A DNA stretch of 20,423 nt from a virus, in the IMG/VR virus record IMGVR_UViG_3300034073_001055, positions 1 to 20,423 of that record; one strand, given 5' to 3'. The translations under genes were made by a program, and so were the position numbers. The notes under the pieces were generated by a model. That model had not been told where the DNA came from and searched no databases. It saw only the letters and a list, made by a program, of their open reading frames with translations. Positions within the stretch are counted from its first letter, which is position 1. Each line of letters opens with the position of its first letter. Below are positions 2,486 to 15,938 of the stretch, piece after piece.

Positions 2486-2737
2486 ATGAATCCACTGGTT
2501 CACACAATGGAAGCACAGTTCCACGGCGCTGCCAACGCTAACATGTTGCGCCAGTTACATGCCGCAAAGGATTACAACGCCTTGCTTGAGTATGGTCTGC
2601 TGCTGGCCGAGCAAGAGGCTAGCCAGCGATCGCAGATCAAATGGTTGGCTGCCGAGGCAATGCGCTCATGCAGCGTCGAGCCGTGGCACCTGAGCGCGGC
2701 CAAAGACCTGCTCAGTGACCTTGCTGGCCGTGACTAG
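2486..2737 (+). CDS. Small helical hypothetical protein on the opposite strand
   Basis: This rightward frame fills the gap between two leftward genes, sigma factor and dCTP deaminase, where no leftward frame is seen. The product (83 residues from ATG 2486; ATG 2507 giving MEAQFHGAANANML is an equally good start) looks fully helical and protein-like, for example YNALLEYGLLLAEQEASQR. No motif or function was recognised. Its start lies 2 bases from the divergent sigma start and its 3' end overlaps dCTP deaminase by 72 bases. Its promoter would have to lie inside the sigma gene, which is odd. Support is the composition and the otherwise empty gap. Confidence 0.5.
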   Translation: MNPLVHTMEAQFHGAANANMLRQLHAAKDYNALLEYGLLLAEQEASQRSQIKWLAAEAMRSCSVEPWHLSAAKDLLSDLAGRD

Positions 2738-3229
2738 CCGGTCGCCGTTGTAGTGTCCTACGGTCGCATAGCTGAGCGCTGGGCGTTGGCTCATACGAAA
2801 GAACACCATCTGGCCGATCTTCAAGCCCGGATAAATCGGTAACGGCTGAAGCTGCCGCTGGTTCTTTAGTTCCAGTGTCAGGCTGCTGCCATGCCAACCG
2901 GGATCGGCATAACCGGCGTGTAGATTTTCGTATCCTTCACGCGCGCGGCTTGACTTTAGGAAGAACAACCCAGCGACATCCTCTGGCATGTTGAACATTT
3001 CCATCGTCTGCGCAAGAATGAACTGCCCTGGCACCAGTTCGTATGGGTGTTCTGGCGTGTAATGCTTGATCGACAGCGGAATCATTTCGTGCGATTGCAC
3101 GGATTCCAGCAGGATGAGACTACCAAGCCGCAAGTCAAGACTGGCAGGATTGATCAACTCTGGGTCATGGTCTTGCACCATGCCTTCATTGCGGATCAGG
3201 TCTTGGATTTCGGTGTCACACAGAATCAT
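2666..3229 (-). CDS. dcd: dCTP deaminase / dUTPase-fold enzyme
   Basis: This 187-residue protein belongs to the dCTP deaminase-dUTPase superfamily. It shows INPASLDLRLG (27-36), LVPGQFILAQT (65-75), the nucleotide-binding KSSRAREG (92-99), and HAGYADPGWHG followed by LTLELKN, whose Glu (E120) is the expected catalytic residue. The reaction expected is dCTP plus water to dUTP and ammonia, feeding dTMP synthesis; some members also hydrolyse dUTP. The Glu and the SSRA motif favour deaminase over plain dUTPase. In phages such enzymes rebalance the nucleotide pool, and they can matter where unusual pyrimidines are made. It overlaps the preceding small gene by 14 bases. Confidence 0.85.
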   Translation of the reverse strand: MILCDTEIQDLIRNEGMVQDHDPELINPASLDLRLGSLILLESVQSHEMIPLSIKHYTPEHPYELVPGQFILAQTMEMFNMPEDVAGLFFLKSSRAREGYENLHAGYADPGWHGSSLTLELKNQRQLQPLPIYPGLKIGQMVFFRMSQRPALSYATVGHYNGDRLVTASKVTEQVFGRAQVPRLDAA

Positions 3230-4258: not shown

Positions 4259-4394
4259 CCTGCATCAGCTCCATCAGTTGCAAGATGTACGCAGCAAAGG
4301 CGGTGTGCGTCATAACAGCATGGGTGCCGGGCGGCATTCCATAACTATCACGCCACCAGTCTTCAAAGGCTGCTTTAATGGCGGCTTCGTTCAT
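4242..4394 (-). CDS. Small phage protein with WWRDSY and PPGxHAVMTH motifs (50 aa)
   Basis: The ATG at 4394 overlaps the TGA of the clamp gene (TGATG). The product reads MNEAAIKAAFEDWWRDSYGM, then PPGTHAVMTHTAF and AYILQLMELMQ. The WWRDSY-PPG-HAVMTH pattern is one I recall from small uncharacterised phage proteins, probably a helical hairpin. No function is known. Its 3' end overlaps DUF3310 by 17 bases. The stop-start overlap and distinctive motif support a real gene. Confidence 0.65.
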   Translation of the reverse strand: MNEAAIKAAFEDWWRDSYGMPPGTHAVMTHTAFAAYILQLMELMQDDRPS

Positions 4395-5473
4395 GATTGA
4401 CGCACCTGCACTGGCATGACAAGGTAGATATTATCATCGTTCTTTGCGCATTTGATGATCGCTGGAGTCATTGATGTTATTGTTAATAGCTCAATTTCGT
4501 CACCGTGAAACTGTTTAATGCCATCGATTAAATAGTTGACATTAAAAGCAATATCCGGCAGGGTCCCGGTTGATGGCATATTTTCGCTTCCATGACCAGT
4601 TTCGGACTCGGCTTGGACAAGCAAGCTCCCAAATTCGTCGTCCGATTTCAGTTTTACGATATTACTGCCATCGCAGCAGATGATTGCAATGCGCTCAAGT
4701 GTTTCAAGCATTTTTCTTCTATCAACAGTCAGTGTATGCTTAAAAGCTTTTGGTATTAGTTGATCAACATCAGGGAAAGTACCATCCAGCACGCGACCAA
4801 CAATGGTAGTACTATCGTCAACAGCAATGCTGGCCTGATACTTGTCAAAAGAAATTGAGATTTGTGGTGAGTCAACTCGAAGTACCTGCTGCAATGTCTT
4901 GGCTGGTATCACTACATCTATGTCTGCTGGTTCGCAAGGCTGCTTCCTTATTGAAAGTCTGTGGCCGTCCGTGGATTCAAGTCTTAACTGATTGGACTCA
5001 GCTTTGAAATGGACGCCAGTTAAAACTTGTTTTGACTCATCAGTGCTGCAGCAGGATAAAACCGCCTTTAAAGAATCTGATACGGCCAGGTCAATAGAGT
5101 TTTCGCTGTCAATTACTGGCAGATCGGGAAAGTCCTCTGCAGAAGCAGTCGAAAGCCGATAGCAGCCGCTTGGCGTTTTAAGCACAAGAGAATTGTTATC
5201 TGTCTCAAAATTGATTGCTGCTTGCCGATCAATCTTGGCGACAATTTCCGATAACAGCTTGTACGGCACTGTAACTGATCCAGGCTCTTCAACCAAGGCG
5301 ACGGTTGTATGCCTGATACCCATGTCAATGTTGTAGCAGGTGGCCTCAAGACTGCCTGTTTTAACGCAAAGCAGCACATTGCAAAGAATTGGGTGCATCT
5401 TTGCGCTGCCTACCGCTTTGCCAACCAGGCGCAAGGCATGATTTAGGTTTGACTGTGTAATAACAAATTTCAT
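4391..5473 (-). CDS. dnaN: DNA polymerase III beta subunit (sliding clamp)
   Basis: This 360-residue protein is a full-length bacterial-type clamp, close to the usual 360-390 residues. Recognisable signatures include the N-terminal MKFVITQSNLNHALRLVGKA, the FPDLP motif (in SAEDFPDLPVI), LTGVHFKAESNQLRLESTDGHR in domain 2, and a C-terminal LVMPVQVRQ. Three repeated domains form a dimeric ring that holds polymerase on DNA. The sequence style is close to cyanobacterial DnaN, so capture from a host is likely. Phages more often encode a T4-type clamp or none. It would have to be loaded by the host clamp loader, since no loader is seen here. It sits mid-operon, coupled by overlaps to both neighbours. 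Confidence 0.95.
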   Translation of the reverse strand: MKFVITQSNLNHALRLVGKAVGSAKMHPILCNVLLCVKTGSLEATCYNIDMGIRHTTVALVEEPGSVTVPYKLLSEIVAKIDRQAAINFETDNNSLVLKTPSGCYRLSTASAEDFPDLPVIDSENSIDLAVSDSLKAVLSCCSTDESKQVLTGVHFKAESNQLRLESTDGHRLSIRKQPCEPADIDVVIPAKTLQQVLRVDSPQISISFDKYQASIAVDDSTTIVGRVLDGTFPDVDQLIPKAFKHTLTVDRRKMLETLERIAIICCDGSNIVKLKSDDEFGSLLVQAESETGHGSENMPSTGTLPDIAFNVNYLIDGIKQFHGDEIELLTITSMTPAIIKCAKNDDNIYLVMPVQVRQS

Positions 5474-12574: not shown

Positions 12575-13378
12575 ATGCTTCCTTTCGACAATGTTGAGAC
12601 AGAATCGACTGTCACGTCGATCAAAGATCTCAAATATGACCACAAAAATGCTCGCCGTCGCACTGATCGGTCAAGCACGCTGATTGCTGAATCGCTTAAA
12701 CGTTATGGAGCGGCTCGCAGCATCGTTATCGATGAAGAGAACCGCATCCTTGCAGGCAATGGCACCATTGAAGGCGCTAAGTCAATCGGCATCAAAAAAG
12801 TGCGCGTCATCGAAACCGATGGCAGCGAGATCATTGCCGTTAAACGCACTGACCTAAACGAGGAAGACAAAATTGGTCTTGCCCTTGCTGATAATCGCAC
12901 CAGCGATCTCAGCGAATGGGATGGGGCAATGCTGCATCAGCTCAGTGAAGAGCATGACATCAGCGCCTGGTTCAGCAAAGAAGAACTTGATGAGCTTTTT
13001 GGTGTCGAAGAAACCATTGACGAAGATAGCCCTTACACAAACAAAACCACGGCTCCTATCTACGAACCAACAGGCGCACAGCACAAGCCCGAGCATCTCT
13101 ACGACACCGCAAAAACAAATCGCCTGCTTGCCGATATCGAAGTAGCCGAGATCCCTGATGACATCAAGGATTTCCTAAAATCAGCAGCACATCGGCATAC
13201 GGCTTTTAACTACAGTAAAATTGCTGACTATTACGCGACGGCATCAAAAGAAATCCAAGAACTGTTCGAGCAGTCAGCACTGGTCATTATTGACTTTGAA
13301 CAAGCCATCGAAAATGGCTTTGTCCGCCTAGACGCCAGCATCGAAGAAGCTTTCAAGCAGGATCATCCACATGCGTGA
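12575..13378 (+). CDS. ParB-like nuclease-fold protein paired with a glycosyltransferase
   Basis: This 267-residue protein has an N-terminal ParB/Srx-like domain (about 12-85): IKDLKYDHKNARRR, LIAESLKRYGAARSIVIDEE, then NRILAGNGTIEGAKSIGIKK. The usual AGHGR box is AGNGT here, so the His and Arg of many ParB-fold enzymes are replaced. A second part (95-145, LALADNRTSDLSEWDG) is typical of phage ParB proteins that travel with DNA-modifying enzymes. The C-terminal region (about 170-260) with FNYSKIADYYATASKEIQEL and FEQSALVIIDFEQAIENGFV seems a separate conserved domain. Its stop overlaps the glycosyltransferase start by 8 bases, so the two are probably made together. ParB-fold proteins can bind DNA and CTP or ATP; a targeting or base-modifying role is inferred. 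Confidence 0.78.
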   Translation: MLPFDNVETESTVTSIKDLKYDHKNARRRTDRSSTLIAESLKRYGAARSIVIDEENRILAGNGTIEGAKSIGIKKVRVIETDGSEIIAVKRTDLNEEDKIGLALADNRTSDLSEWDGAMLHQLSEEHDISAWFSKEELDELFGVEETIDEDSPYTNKTTAPIYEPTGAQHKPEHLYDTAKTNRLLADIEVAEIPDDIKDFLKSAAHRHTAFNYSKIADYYATASKEIQELFEQSALVIIDFEQAIENGFVRLDASIEEAFKQDHPHA

Positions 13379-14231
13379 CGACTTTTGCATCTTTATCCTG
13401 TCAAACCGCAGGCCAGATAACATCAAAACGCTTGAGACCCTTCAGCGTTCCAATTACGACGGCAAGTGGTACATCGTCATCGACGACGAAGACCCGACAG
13501 GCGATCAATACAAAAAAGCCTACGGCGACAAGGTTCTGGTCTTTTCTAAAGCCAAGGTCGCAGAAACGACAGACTCATGCGATACGTCAAAAGACCGCCG
13601 CACGCCGTTATGGGCACGAAACGCCTGCTGGGATCTGGCGAAGCAAGTCAAATGCCGTTACTTTTGCCAGCTTGATGACGATTACACCTGGTTCTCCTAT
13701 CGCCGCATAGGTCGCAAAGACCCAGGCGGTCCGCCGAAATACTCGAACTTTAAGGCAGAAAGCCTTGATATCGTTTTTGGTGCCATGATCGAGCTGCTTG
13801 AATCAACACCATCCGTGTCAAGCATTGCGTTCTCTCAAGGTGGTGACTACAACGTCAGCTCAGAAAAAGCCAGACGTGTCCTGCGCAAAGCAATGAACTC
13901 ATTCTTTTGCGATACGCAGCGCCCGTTCAAATTCATCGGCAAGTTCAACGATGATGTCAATACCTACATCGCCCATGGTGCCACGGGCAAGCTGTTTTTT
14001 ACCTACTGCCCAATACAGCTCACACAAGGCGTAACGCAGCAAAACAAAGGCGGAATCACTGAGGCCTACAAGGAAAATGGCACCTACGTCAAATCCTTCT
14101 ACACCGTCATGATCTCGCCGTCGTCAACATGGATCGAACTCATGGGCCACAAGAATCCACGCCTACACCACACACATGACTGGAATAAGGTATGCCCTAA
14201 AATCATCCACGAAAAATATCGACGCCAATAG
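13371..14231 (+). CDS. TET-associated-type glycosyltransferase (TAGT/GREB1-like)
   Basis: This 286-residue protein resembles the TAGT/GREB1 family of GT-A-type glycosyltransferases found in phages. Motifs: FILSNRRPDNIKTLETLQ (8-25), WYIVIDDEDPTGDQY (33-47), RTPLWARNACWDLAK (77-91), the acidic QLDDDYTWF (100-108) expected to hold the sugar nucleotide through a metal ion, FNDDVNTY (192-199) and a C-terminal HHTHDWNKVCPKII. Family knowledge: TAGTs add sugars to oxidised or hydroxymethylated pyrimidines in phage DNA. No TET/JBP oxygenase, cytosine methyltransferase or pyrimidine hydroxymethylase is in the window, so the accepting base is unknown. Coupled to the ParB-like gene and just ahead of terminase. 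Confidence 0.82.
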   Translation: MRDDFCIFILSNRRPDNIKTLETLQRSNYDGKWYIVIDDEDPTGDQYKKAYGDKVLVFSKAKVAETTDSCDTSKDRRTPLWARNACWDLAKQVKCRYFCQLDDDYTWFSYRRIGRKDPGGPPKYSNFKAESLDIVFGAMIELLESTPSVSSIAFSQGGDYNVSSEKARRVLRKAMNSFFCDTQRPFKFIGKFNDDVNTYIAHGATGKLFFTYCPIQLTQGVTQQNKGGITEAYKENGTYVKSFYTVMISPSSTWIELMGHKNPRLHHTHDWNKVCPKIIHEKYRRQ

Positions 14232-14277: not shown

Positions 14278-14601
14278 ATGGCCCCCAAACGTGGACCAAA
14301 AGCTGAAACCCTTGAACGCGCTGAACGTTTTGCGCGCATCATTGCCAATGGTGGCAGACGGTCAGATTGCATCCGCTACGCCAGGGAAAACTGGGGGGTC
14401 AAAGACGATGCCTGTGATCTTTACCTGCGGCTGGCACGCGAGAAGCTGAAGGCCGACTGGGACATCGAACGACCGCAGATGGTGGCTGACCTGCTAAGCC
14501 AGTGCTCCACATTGCAGATGGAAGCAAGGCGCGCTGGGCAGTATCACATCGCACTCGGCGCTATCAACACAGCAGCAAAGCTTGCAGCACTTTGCTCATG
14601 A
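14278..14601 (+). CDS. terS: Terminase small subunit
   Basis: This 107-residue protein begins with a basic arm MAPKRGPKAETLERAERFAR and a helix-turn-helix (IANGGRRSDCIRYARENWGV) followed by long helices (YLRLAREKLKADWDIERPQM). The size, basic N-terminal DNA-binding region and helical oligomer core fit a small terminase subunit, which selects phage DNA for packaging. Its stop overlaps the start of the large subunit (ATGA). The 46 bases before it hold no clear promoter. Confidence 0.8.
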   Translation: MAPKRGPKAETLERAERFARIIANGGRRSDCIRYARENWGVKDDACDLYLRLAREKLKADWDIERPQMVADLLSQCSTLQMEARRAGQYHIALGAINTAAKLAALCS

Positions 14602-15938
14602 GCATTCTGCTGGAAGCCAAGCCAGGGCATGTGCTTTACAGCGGTGAAGCCGGCAGTAGTGCTCCAACAGCCACCGAAGTCATCGAGCGTATCAACGCAT
14701 CGCTGCTGCCGCATCAAAAGGCGTTCTGCGATGACATGGAACATCGCAAGATTGGCCTTGTCTGCGGGTTTGGTGCTGGCAAGACTTACAGCCTGGTTGC
14801 CAAAGCCTGTGTGCTTGCAGCCAAGAACGTTGGCCACGTCTCAGCCTTATTCGAACCAGTCGCGCCGATGCTCAGGGACATCCTTGAACGCACCATGGAC
14901 GACCTGCTGTCTGAATGGGAGATTCCCTATACCTTTCGCGTCAGCCCGCTGCCTGAGTACGTTCTAACGTTTGCCGAGGGGCAGCACACGATCCTGCTAC
15001 GCACCATGGAAACATGGAACCGGATTCGTGGTCAAAACCTTTGCGCAATTGGATTTGACGAAGCCGATACGGCGAACAAGCGCACAGCGGATCAAGCGAC
15101 ACGAATGGCGTTAGCTCGTCTTCGTGCTGGCAATGTCAGGCAGTTTTATGCCGCCACAACACCAGAGGGTTATGGCTGGGCGTATCAAACGTTTCAGCGA
15201 GAGGCGAAGGATGATACGCGGCTCATTCAAGCCAAAACCGAAGACAACCCATACCTGCCAGATGACTTCATTCCAAGCTTGATTGAGAACTATCCCTCGA
15301 ACCTGATCAAGGCGTATCTGAATGGCGAGTTTGTCAACCTGACGACGGGCAGTGTGTATGACCGCTTTGACCGCAGCAAGCATGTATTTACCAAGCTGCC
15401 TGACTTTGCCAATGAACCGCTGCGTATTGGCGTTGATTTCAACGTTGGCAATATGAGCGCCGTGATCGCCGTGCGTTATGGTGATCGGTTAACAGTGATC
15501 GATGAAATCTCTGGAGCGCATGACACTGATGCGTTGGCTCAAGAGATCAAGCGTCGTTACCCAGAGCATCGCATCTATGTCTATCCAGATGCCAGCGGCG
15601 GCAACCGCAGCACCAATGCAAGTCAAACTGACATTCAGATCCTTGAGACCTATGGCTTCAGCAACCAGTCATCGCGTAGCAATCCTCCCGTCCGTGATCG
15701 GGTGGCTGCTGTTCAGGCTTTGCTGGAGAACGGCAAGGGTCAAATAAGGTTGCAAGTTTCTGACACTTGTAAACGGCTGATCGAGTGCCTTGAGCTGCAG
15801 TGCTGGACAGAGAAAGGCGAGCCTGACAAGGATGCCGGGCACGATCACATGAATGATGCCCTTGGCTACATCATTTGGCGTGAGTTCAATCCGCTGCATT
15901 CCCGCGCTGGCAGGGCAACTGGAATCAGGTTGTATTAA
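14598..15938 (+). CDS. terL: Terminase large subunit
   Basis: From ATG 14598 the protein is 446 residues. The ATPase has Walker A GFGAGKT (57-63), Walker B IGFDEAD (151-157) and a coupling motif with AATTPEGYG (185-193). The nuclease has GVDFNVG (D280), VYPDASG (D331) and HDHMNDALGY (D420), the RNase H-like acidic triad. It drives DNA into the prohead and cuts it at headful or cohesive ends. The family is Terminase_6/3-like; I cannot fix the packaging type. The start is chosen from the ATGA overlap; the frame runs open upstream to 14502 inside terS, which was rejected. Confidence 0.95.
   Translation: MSILLEAKPGHVLYSGEAGSSAPTATEVIERINASLLPHQKAFCDDMEHRKIGLVCGFGAGKTYSLVAKACVLAAKNVGHVSALFEPVAPMLRDILERTMDDLLSEWEIPYTFRVSPLPEYVLTFAEGQHTILLRTMETWNRIRGQNLCAIGFDEADTANKRTADQATRMALARLRAGNVRQFYAATTPEGYGWAYQTFQREAKDDTRLIQAKTEDNPYLPDDFIPSLIENYPSNLIKAYLNGEFVNLTTGSVYDRFDRSKHVFTKLPDFANEPLRIGVDFNVGNMSAVIAVRYGDRLTVIDEISGAHDTDALAQEIKRRYPEHRIYVYPDASGGNRSTNASQTDIQILETYGFSNQSSRSNPPVRDRVAAVQALLENGKGQIRLQVSDTCKRLIECLELQCWTEKGEPDKDAGHDHMNDALGYIIWREFNPLHSRAGRATGIRLY

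Follow-up and report, generated by a model that had tools for sequence, protein, structure and literature searches.

A conserved C-terminal domain of ParB-like phage proteins is the obligate partner of TAGT glycosyltransferases, in what is probably a DNA-modifying unit without a dedicated base hydroxylase

What does a phage-encoded glycosyltransferase of the TAGT type modify when no enzyme that could prepare a base for it is found with it? To our knowledge, all DNA glycosyltransferases characterised so far use a 5-hydroxymethyl or an already glycosylated base, and we know of no phage DNA glycosylation that begins at anything other than a base already bearing a hydroxyl. The question is raised by a gene pair (Table 1) in a 20.4-kb IMG/VR virus fragment (the window, i.e., the whole stretch of DNA analysed here), in which a ParB-like protein is encoded next to a TAGT, an enzyme type reportedly named by Iyer et al. 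in 2013. Our literature search, outside which that naming paper fell, found no paper joining ParB with TAGT. With a probability of roughly 0.6, we propose that the pair is a two-subunit phage glycosyltransferase that modifies DNA without a dedicated base hydroxylase. New here are the obligate partner of the TAGT—the previously unrecognised C-terminal domain (CTD) of the ParB-like protein—and the missing of the known precursor step.

Table 1. Features of the gene pair and its downstream neighbours in the window
Feature	Positions	Strand	Description
ParB-like protein	12575..13378	+	267 aa; putative N-terminal ParB/Srx-type domain, flexible linker and conserved C-terminal helical domain
CTD of the ParB-like protein (helical, aa ~150-264)	13022..13366	+	obligate TAGT partner
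TAGT glycosyltransferase	13371..14231	+	286 aa, GT-A fold
DDD motif of the TAGT (aa 102-104)	13674..13682	+	putative metal/sugar-nucleotide site
HH pair of the TAGT (aa 266-267), near the C terminus	14166..14171	+	candidate third metal ligand
Small gene at the terminase-small-subunit position	14278..14601	+	107 aa; phrog_34910 (function unknown)
Terminase large subunit (TerL)	14601..15938	+	Terminase_6N 1e-13, Terminase_6C 1.2e-12

The sequence-only reading of the window had described two coupled genes immediately before terminase, one encoding a ParB fold followed by a second conserved C-terminal domain, the other carrying the TAGT-type motif QLDDDYTWF. Both reading frames are indeed present on the same strand and share 8 bases; the motif contains the DDD triad, which is invariant, as is the HH pair, across 42 aligned TAGTs; and the second domain is real, being the best-conserved portion of the ParB-like protein in the alignment, with Y154, P161, Y163, R207, Y220, E232, D240 and G248 invariant. 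The position relative to terminase needs a correction: the pair lies just upstream of TerL, but not immediately so, since a small gene intervenes, and in other cassettes several terminase small subunits occupy the equivalent slot. Elsewhere in the window, on the minus strand, are a phage-borne RNA polymerase sigma factor (1543-2484; phrog_351, 5.7e-68) and, judged by eye, a candidate dCTP-deaminase/dUTPase-type protein (2666-3229) and a candidate DNA sliding clamp (4391-5473).

The window TAGT is a match to PF20691 (E value of 3.5e-29; 102.6 bits against a curated cut-off of 27.5) and to phrog_842 (6.5e-67). Its AlphaFold (AF2) model is confident (pLDDT 85.8, pTM 0.86) and shows a GT-A fold with the acidic DDD in place; Foldseek matched it to the GT-A enzymes SpsA (1.2e-5), SunS and WrtF, with glycogenin also among the matches. 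By analogy with other GT-A enzymes, we infer that the HH pair is a candidate third metal ligand. Tandem TAGT genes occur at loci L071, L239 and L246-L249, and the first copy in L239 keeps the acidic motif and lacks the C-terminal HH pair. The characterised member of PF20691, the T6 TAGT, adds glucose onto glucosylated cytosine in DNA (PMC13216743). This beta-glucosyl-HMC-alpha-glucosyltransferase shares with the cassette TAGT its family, its GT-A fold and its phage origin, but it acts after a dCMP hydroxymethylase and an alpha-glucosyltransferase, whereas the cassette has no hydroxymethylase and its CTD is obligate; T-even phages yielded no CTD gene.

The partner protein is less easily placed. 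It matches phrog_620, annotated as "ParB-like partition protein" (9.5e-34), and gave no match to Pfam ParB_N. In its AF2 model (pLDDT 78), residues 145 to 159 form a linker with pLDDT below 50, and Foldseek with the whole model returned weak matches to ParB-CDP and Noc (best E value of 5e-3, probability 1.0), which involved the ParB portion alone. Nothing was matched to the CTD, whose sequence likewise had no credible match in the PDB; these searches support no assignment of the CTD to a known fold.

Comparing ParB-TAGT neighbourhoods in other phages revealed a widespread conserved unit in which the CTD, rather than the ParB domain, is the constant companion of the enzyme. We compared 218 distinct TAGT loci, which come from viruses that span many bacterial phyla and from a single haloarchaeal virus; in 211 of them the CTD adjoins the TAGT (209 upstream and 2 downstream). 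The seven exceptions comprise four TAGTs at contig edges without upstream DNA (one of them, L235, cut at 20 bases), one locus cut by a contig end, and the two damaged TAGT genes of phages LL-Ku and Ld17. The converse also holds, as all 78 loci newly found with a CTD profile carry a TAGT, and so do all 28 isolated-phage records found by tblastn with the CTD. In up to 25 of these 211, including a few on cut contigs, no ParB domain was found with the CTD, and at some loci the CTD stands alone as a gene of ∼120 to 150 aa. In a mirror-tree analysis of 96 non-redundant pairs, in which shared ancestry is uncorrected, TAGT and CTD divergence correlated with r=0.70; under the same proviso, the partial correlation is 0.65 for TAGT and CTD given ParB and 0.04 for TAGT and ParB given CTD; this contrast, drawn within a single protein, is informative. 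Given this linkage, the partial correlations and the loci missing the ParB domain, we regard the CTD as the obligate partner of the TAGT. The CTD-only loci and the partial correlation rule out the ParB domain as the primary partner, and, judging from the loci without it, this domain is dispensable. Plasmid-type partition is not favoured either: because a TAGT is the partner in nearly every locus and the ParB domain can be missing, we propose no partition role for the ParB-like protein.

These loci probably overlap with a group already on record: solitary TAGT homologues, in 288 of 753 phage genomes that have neither alpha-GT nor beta-GT, have been called "potential novel transferases" (PMC13216743), and the main text of that paper mentions no ParB or other partner protein for them. 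Those solitary enzymes probably include the CTD-TAGT clade, which has no classical partners, and if the cassette acts on DNA, it would help to account for many of them.

Is the base prepared elsewhere in the genome, as the sequence-only reading had offered as one explanation for a glycosyltransferase pair without an oxygenase? No TET/JBP, thymidylate-synthase-like, C5-methyltransferase (C5-MTase), N4/N6-methyltransferase (N4/N6-MTase) or 2OG-FeII_Oxy_3 family was found in the window; genes missing from such a fragment prove little, and we therefore searched whole related genomes for base-preparing enzymes. TET/JBP (PF12851) gave nothing over the cut-off in 39 records, ruling out a TET-linked system, and the thymidylate-synthase family (PF00303) was absent from 38 of these 39, the one exception being Vibrio phage pv27, where the gene may serve plain dTMP synthesis. 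Across 24 records, 2OG-FeII_Oxy_3 was found in none and N6/N4-MTases in three; C5-MTases were found in none of 24 phage or virus records, the sole match being the bacterial genome that holds locus L263. The complete phage c5 (31.8 kb), which has an intact pair, showed no base-modifying enzyme among the best 25 of 34 other Pfam families, and its gene list names none. The searches addressed known families, and a hydroxylase that belongs to no recognised family and is annotated as hypothetical would escape them. The lack of an oxygenase thus extends beyond 20 kb to complete related genomes, and a precursor made by a hydroxymethylase or another enzyme elsewhere in the genome is disfavoured. In the other explanation offered by that reading, the ParB-like protein itself would target or prepare the base; its invariant part, however, is the CTD and not the ParB domain.

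The genes that do accompany the pair point in another direction. A fusion of histidine phosphatase and cytidylyltransferase lies between the ParB-CTD gene and the TAGT gene at L152:3359-4300 and in 32 more loci, and the cytidylyltransferase is a separate gene after the TAGT at L250:5870-6298; altogether, CTP_transf_like with or without His_Phos_1 occurs in 34 loci, some of which are overlapping fetches of one contig. UDP-galactopyranose mutase directly follows the TAGT at L263:5834-6970, L269 and L272 (PF03275 at 1.2e-72 for L263, the only one of the three scanned), which suggests galactofuranose as the donor sugar in these three phages. Epimerases lie near the pair in two loci, an RGP-family gene in one, a methyltransferase gene in one, and a radical SAM gene directly 3' of the TAGT in eleven (L247:5830-6819 and ten more). 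The TAGT bears a fused P-loop domain in one locus (L261:4449-5852) and ParB-CTD does so in another (L051:11095-12390); this domain has weak kinase-type and terminase-small-subunit matches, and a kinase-domain scan found no additional viral relatives. Known base oxidases are not among the accessory genes. As far as gene content can tell, these genes would serve the sugar side, with a donor supply that varies and an acceptor side that needs the pair alone.

Both sets of results bear on a rival explanation, namely, that the TAGT sugars a hydroxylated pyrimidine in the manner of T-even or TET phages, with the hydroxyl coming from the host or from a phage enzyme that has escaped recognition. As far as we know, characterised enzymes of this kind use a 5-hydroxymethyl or glycosylated base, as does the T6 TAGT (PMC13216743), and the thymidylate-synthase-family gene of pv27 would fit. 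However, the TET/JBP, 2OG-FeII_Oxy_3 and PF00303 results, the best 25 of 34 Pfam families of c5 and the want of any base-side accessory gene speak against it, and a common host supply is unlikely for hosts that range from Lactobacillus to Haloarcula. We consider this explanation unlikely.

For the two-subunit DNA glycosyltransferase that we prefer, the following course can be envisaged. The TAGT would act as a GT-A enzyme with a nucleotide-activated sugar as donor, whose identity accessory genes may alter; the CTD would hold the TAGT as an adaptor or activator; and the flexible linker that usually ties the CTD to the ParB/Srx-type domain would allow the latter to engage phage DNA, such that the complex adds sugar to DNA shortly before packaging. 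The acceptor could be a group on an unmodified base or one prepared by the pair itself. A narrower version, in which a sugar such as galactofuranose is attached to an unmodified base, for example, at an exocyclic amine, with sites picked by ParB-CTD, is put forward tentatively, as a possibility that falls short of even odds. If the cassette does act on DNA, it would point either to a base-preparing subunit of a new type or to the joining of sugar directly to an ordinary base; the latter would be a new DNA-modification chemistry without prior base hydroxylation in viruses of both bacteria and archaea.

We infer that DNA is the acceptor, ParB the targeting arm and protection the effect, and the first of these draws on three parallels: the action of the T6 TAGT on DNA, ParB domains fused to methylases or neighbouring CmoX, and the ParB-like ATPase DpdB. 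Some N4/N6 DNA methylases carry a fused ParB-like domain, for example, in prophiT48-1, whose gp48 lies directly upstream of terminase, at the place that the cassette takes in other phages; in these phage proteins, however, the effector is an N6/N4 methylase, and neither CTD nor TAGT is present. DpdB works alongside a base-modifying enzyme in 7-deazaguanine DNA modification (PMC12839542), but the DpdA-DpdB system relies on a transglycosylase and a preQ0 base, and the DpdB type differs from the ParB-CTD architecture of the cassette. Proteins with a ParBc domain are frequent neighbours of the DNA carboxymethyltransferase CmoX (PMC12783734), a carboxymethylcytosine system that, unlike the cassette, transfers a C5 carboxymethyl from Cx-SAM and has no glycosyltransferase.

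The acceptor might instead be a protein—one of the host, one that the phage uses for packaging or builds into its virion, or the CTD itself—with ParB bringing the TAGT to DNA-bound targets. The modelled fold hints at this, with the peptide S-glycosyltransferase SunS among the best matches of the TAGT and glycogenin also present; moreover, the CTD has invariant polar residues, several Tyr among them, and pairs strictly with the TAGT, and the pair usually adjoins terminase genes. On the other hand, the T6 enzyme of PF20691 works on DNA-linked glucose (PMC13216743), ParB-like domains have repeatedly been joined to DNA-modifying enzymes, and in Vibrio jumbo phages the pair is distant from terminase, and we hold a protein acceptor to be more doubtful still than a hydroxylated pyrimidine. 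That the sugar serves as a packaging or identity mark, placed at a small number of defined positions in the DNA so as to license or time the action of terminase and not to shield the genome, is very improbable: terminase genes follow shortly after the pair in the window and in phages that infect E. coli, Lactobacillus, Porphyromonas and Nocardia, and many of its downstream neighbours encode terminase small subunits, yet terminase is not adjacent in the Vibrio jumbo phages, LL-Ku and Ld17 manage packaging with a damaged pair, and in another phage a DNA methylase sits at the equivalent place.

The pair is found far beyond these examples. Isolates that carry it infect E. coli, Salmonella, Lactobacillus, Nocardia, Porphyromonas, Vibrio and the archaeon Haloarcula (in HHTV-2, terminase lies eight genes beyond the pair), the same gene arrangement recurs in a divergent Porphyromonas-type clade, and bacterial genomes with the pair belong to Gammaproteobacteria, Firmicutes, Bacteroidota, Cloacimonadota, Actinobacteria, Verrucomicrobia, Kiritimatiellae and Spirochaetes. 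Different deletions in LL-Ku and Ld17, both relatives of c5, took ParB and part of the TAGT, indicating that the pair is dispensable and that both genes are lost together.

The function proposed here can be tested, as c5 and LL-Ku offer a natural pair of intact and damaged phages and the cassette is common in E. coli, where at least 80% of it is present in 905 of 5,426 complete genomes (intactness rests on a reading-frame check of two strains). There it is flanked by trkG and terminase genes, and it provides a function-level hypothesis for ynaK of E. coli K-12. The first ∼85 aa of this 87-aa Rac prophage protein are identical to the start of the ParB subunit of an intact E. coli cassette, but the CTD and TAGT are gone, and ynaK is what remains of a truncated cassette ParB protein. 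In E. coli FDAARGOS_497, an intact 262-aa ParB subunit (L281:3501-4289) is labelled as pseudogene "ynaK" in RefSeq, apparently owing to comparison with the shortened K-12 reference.
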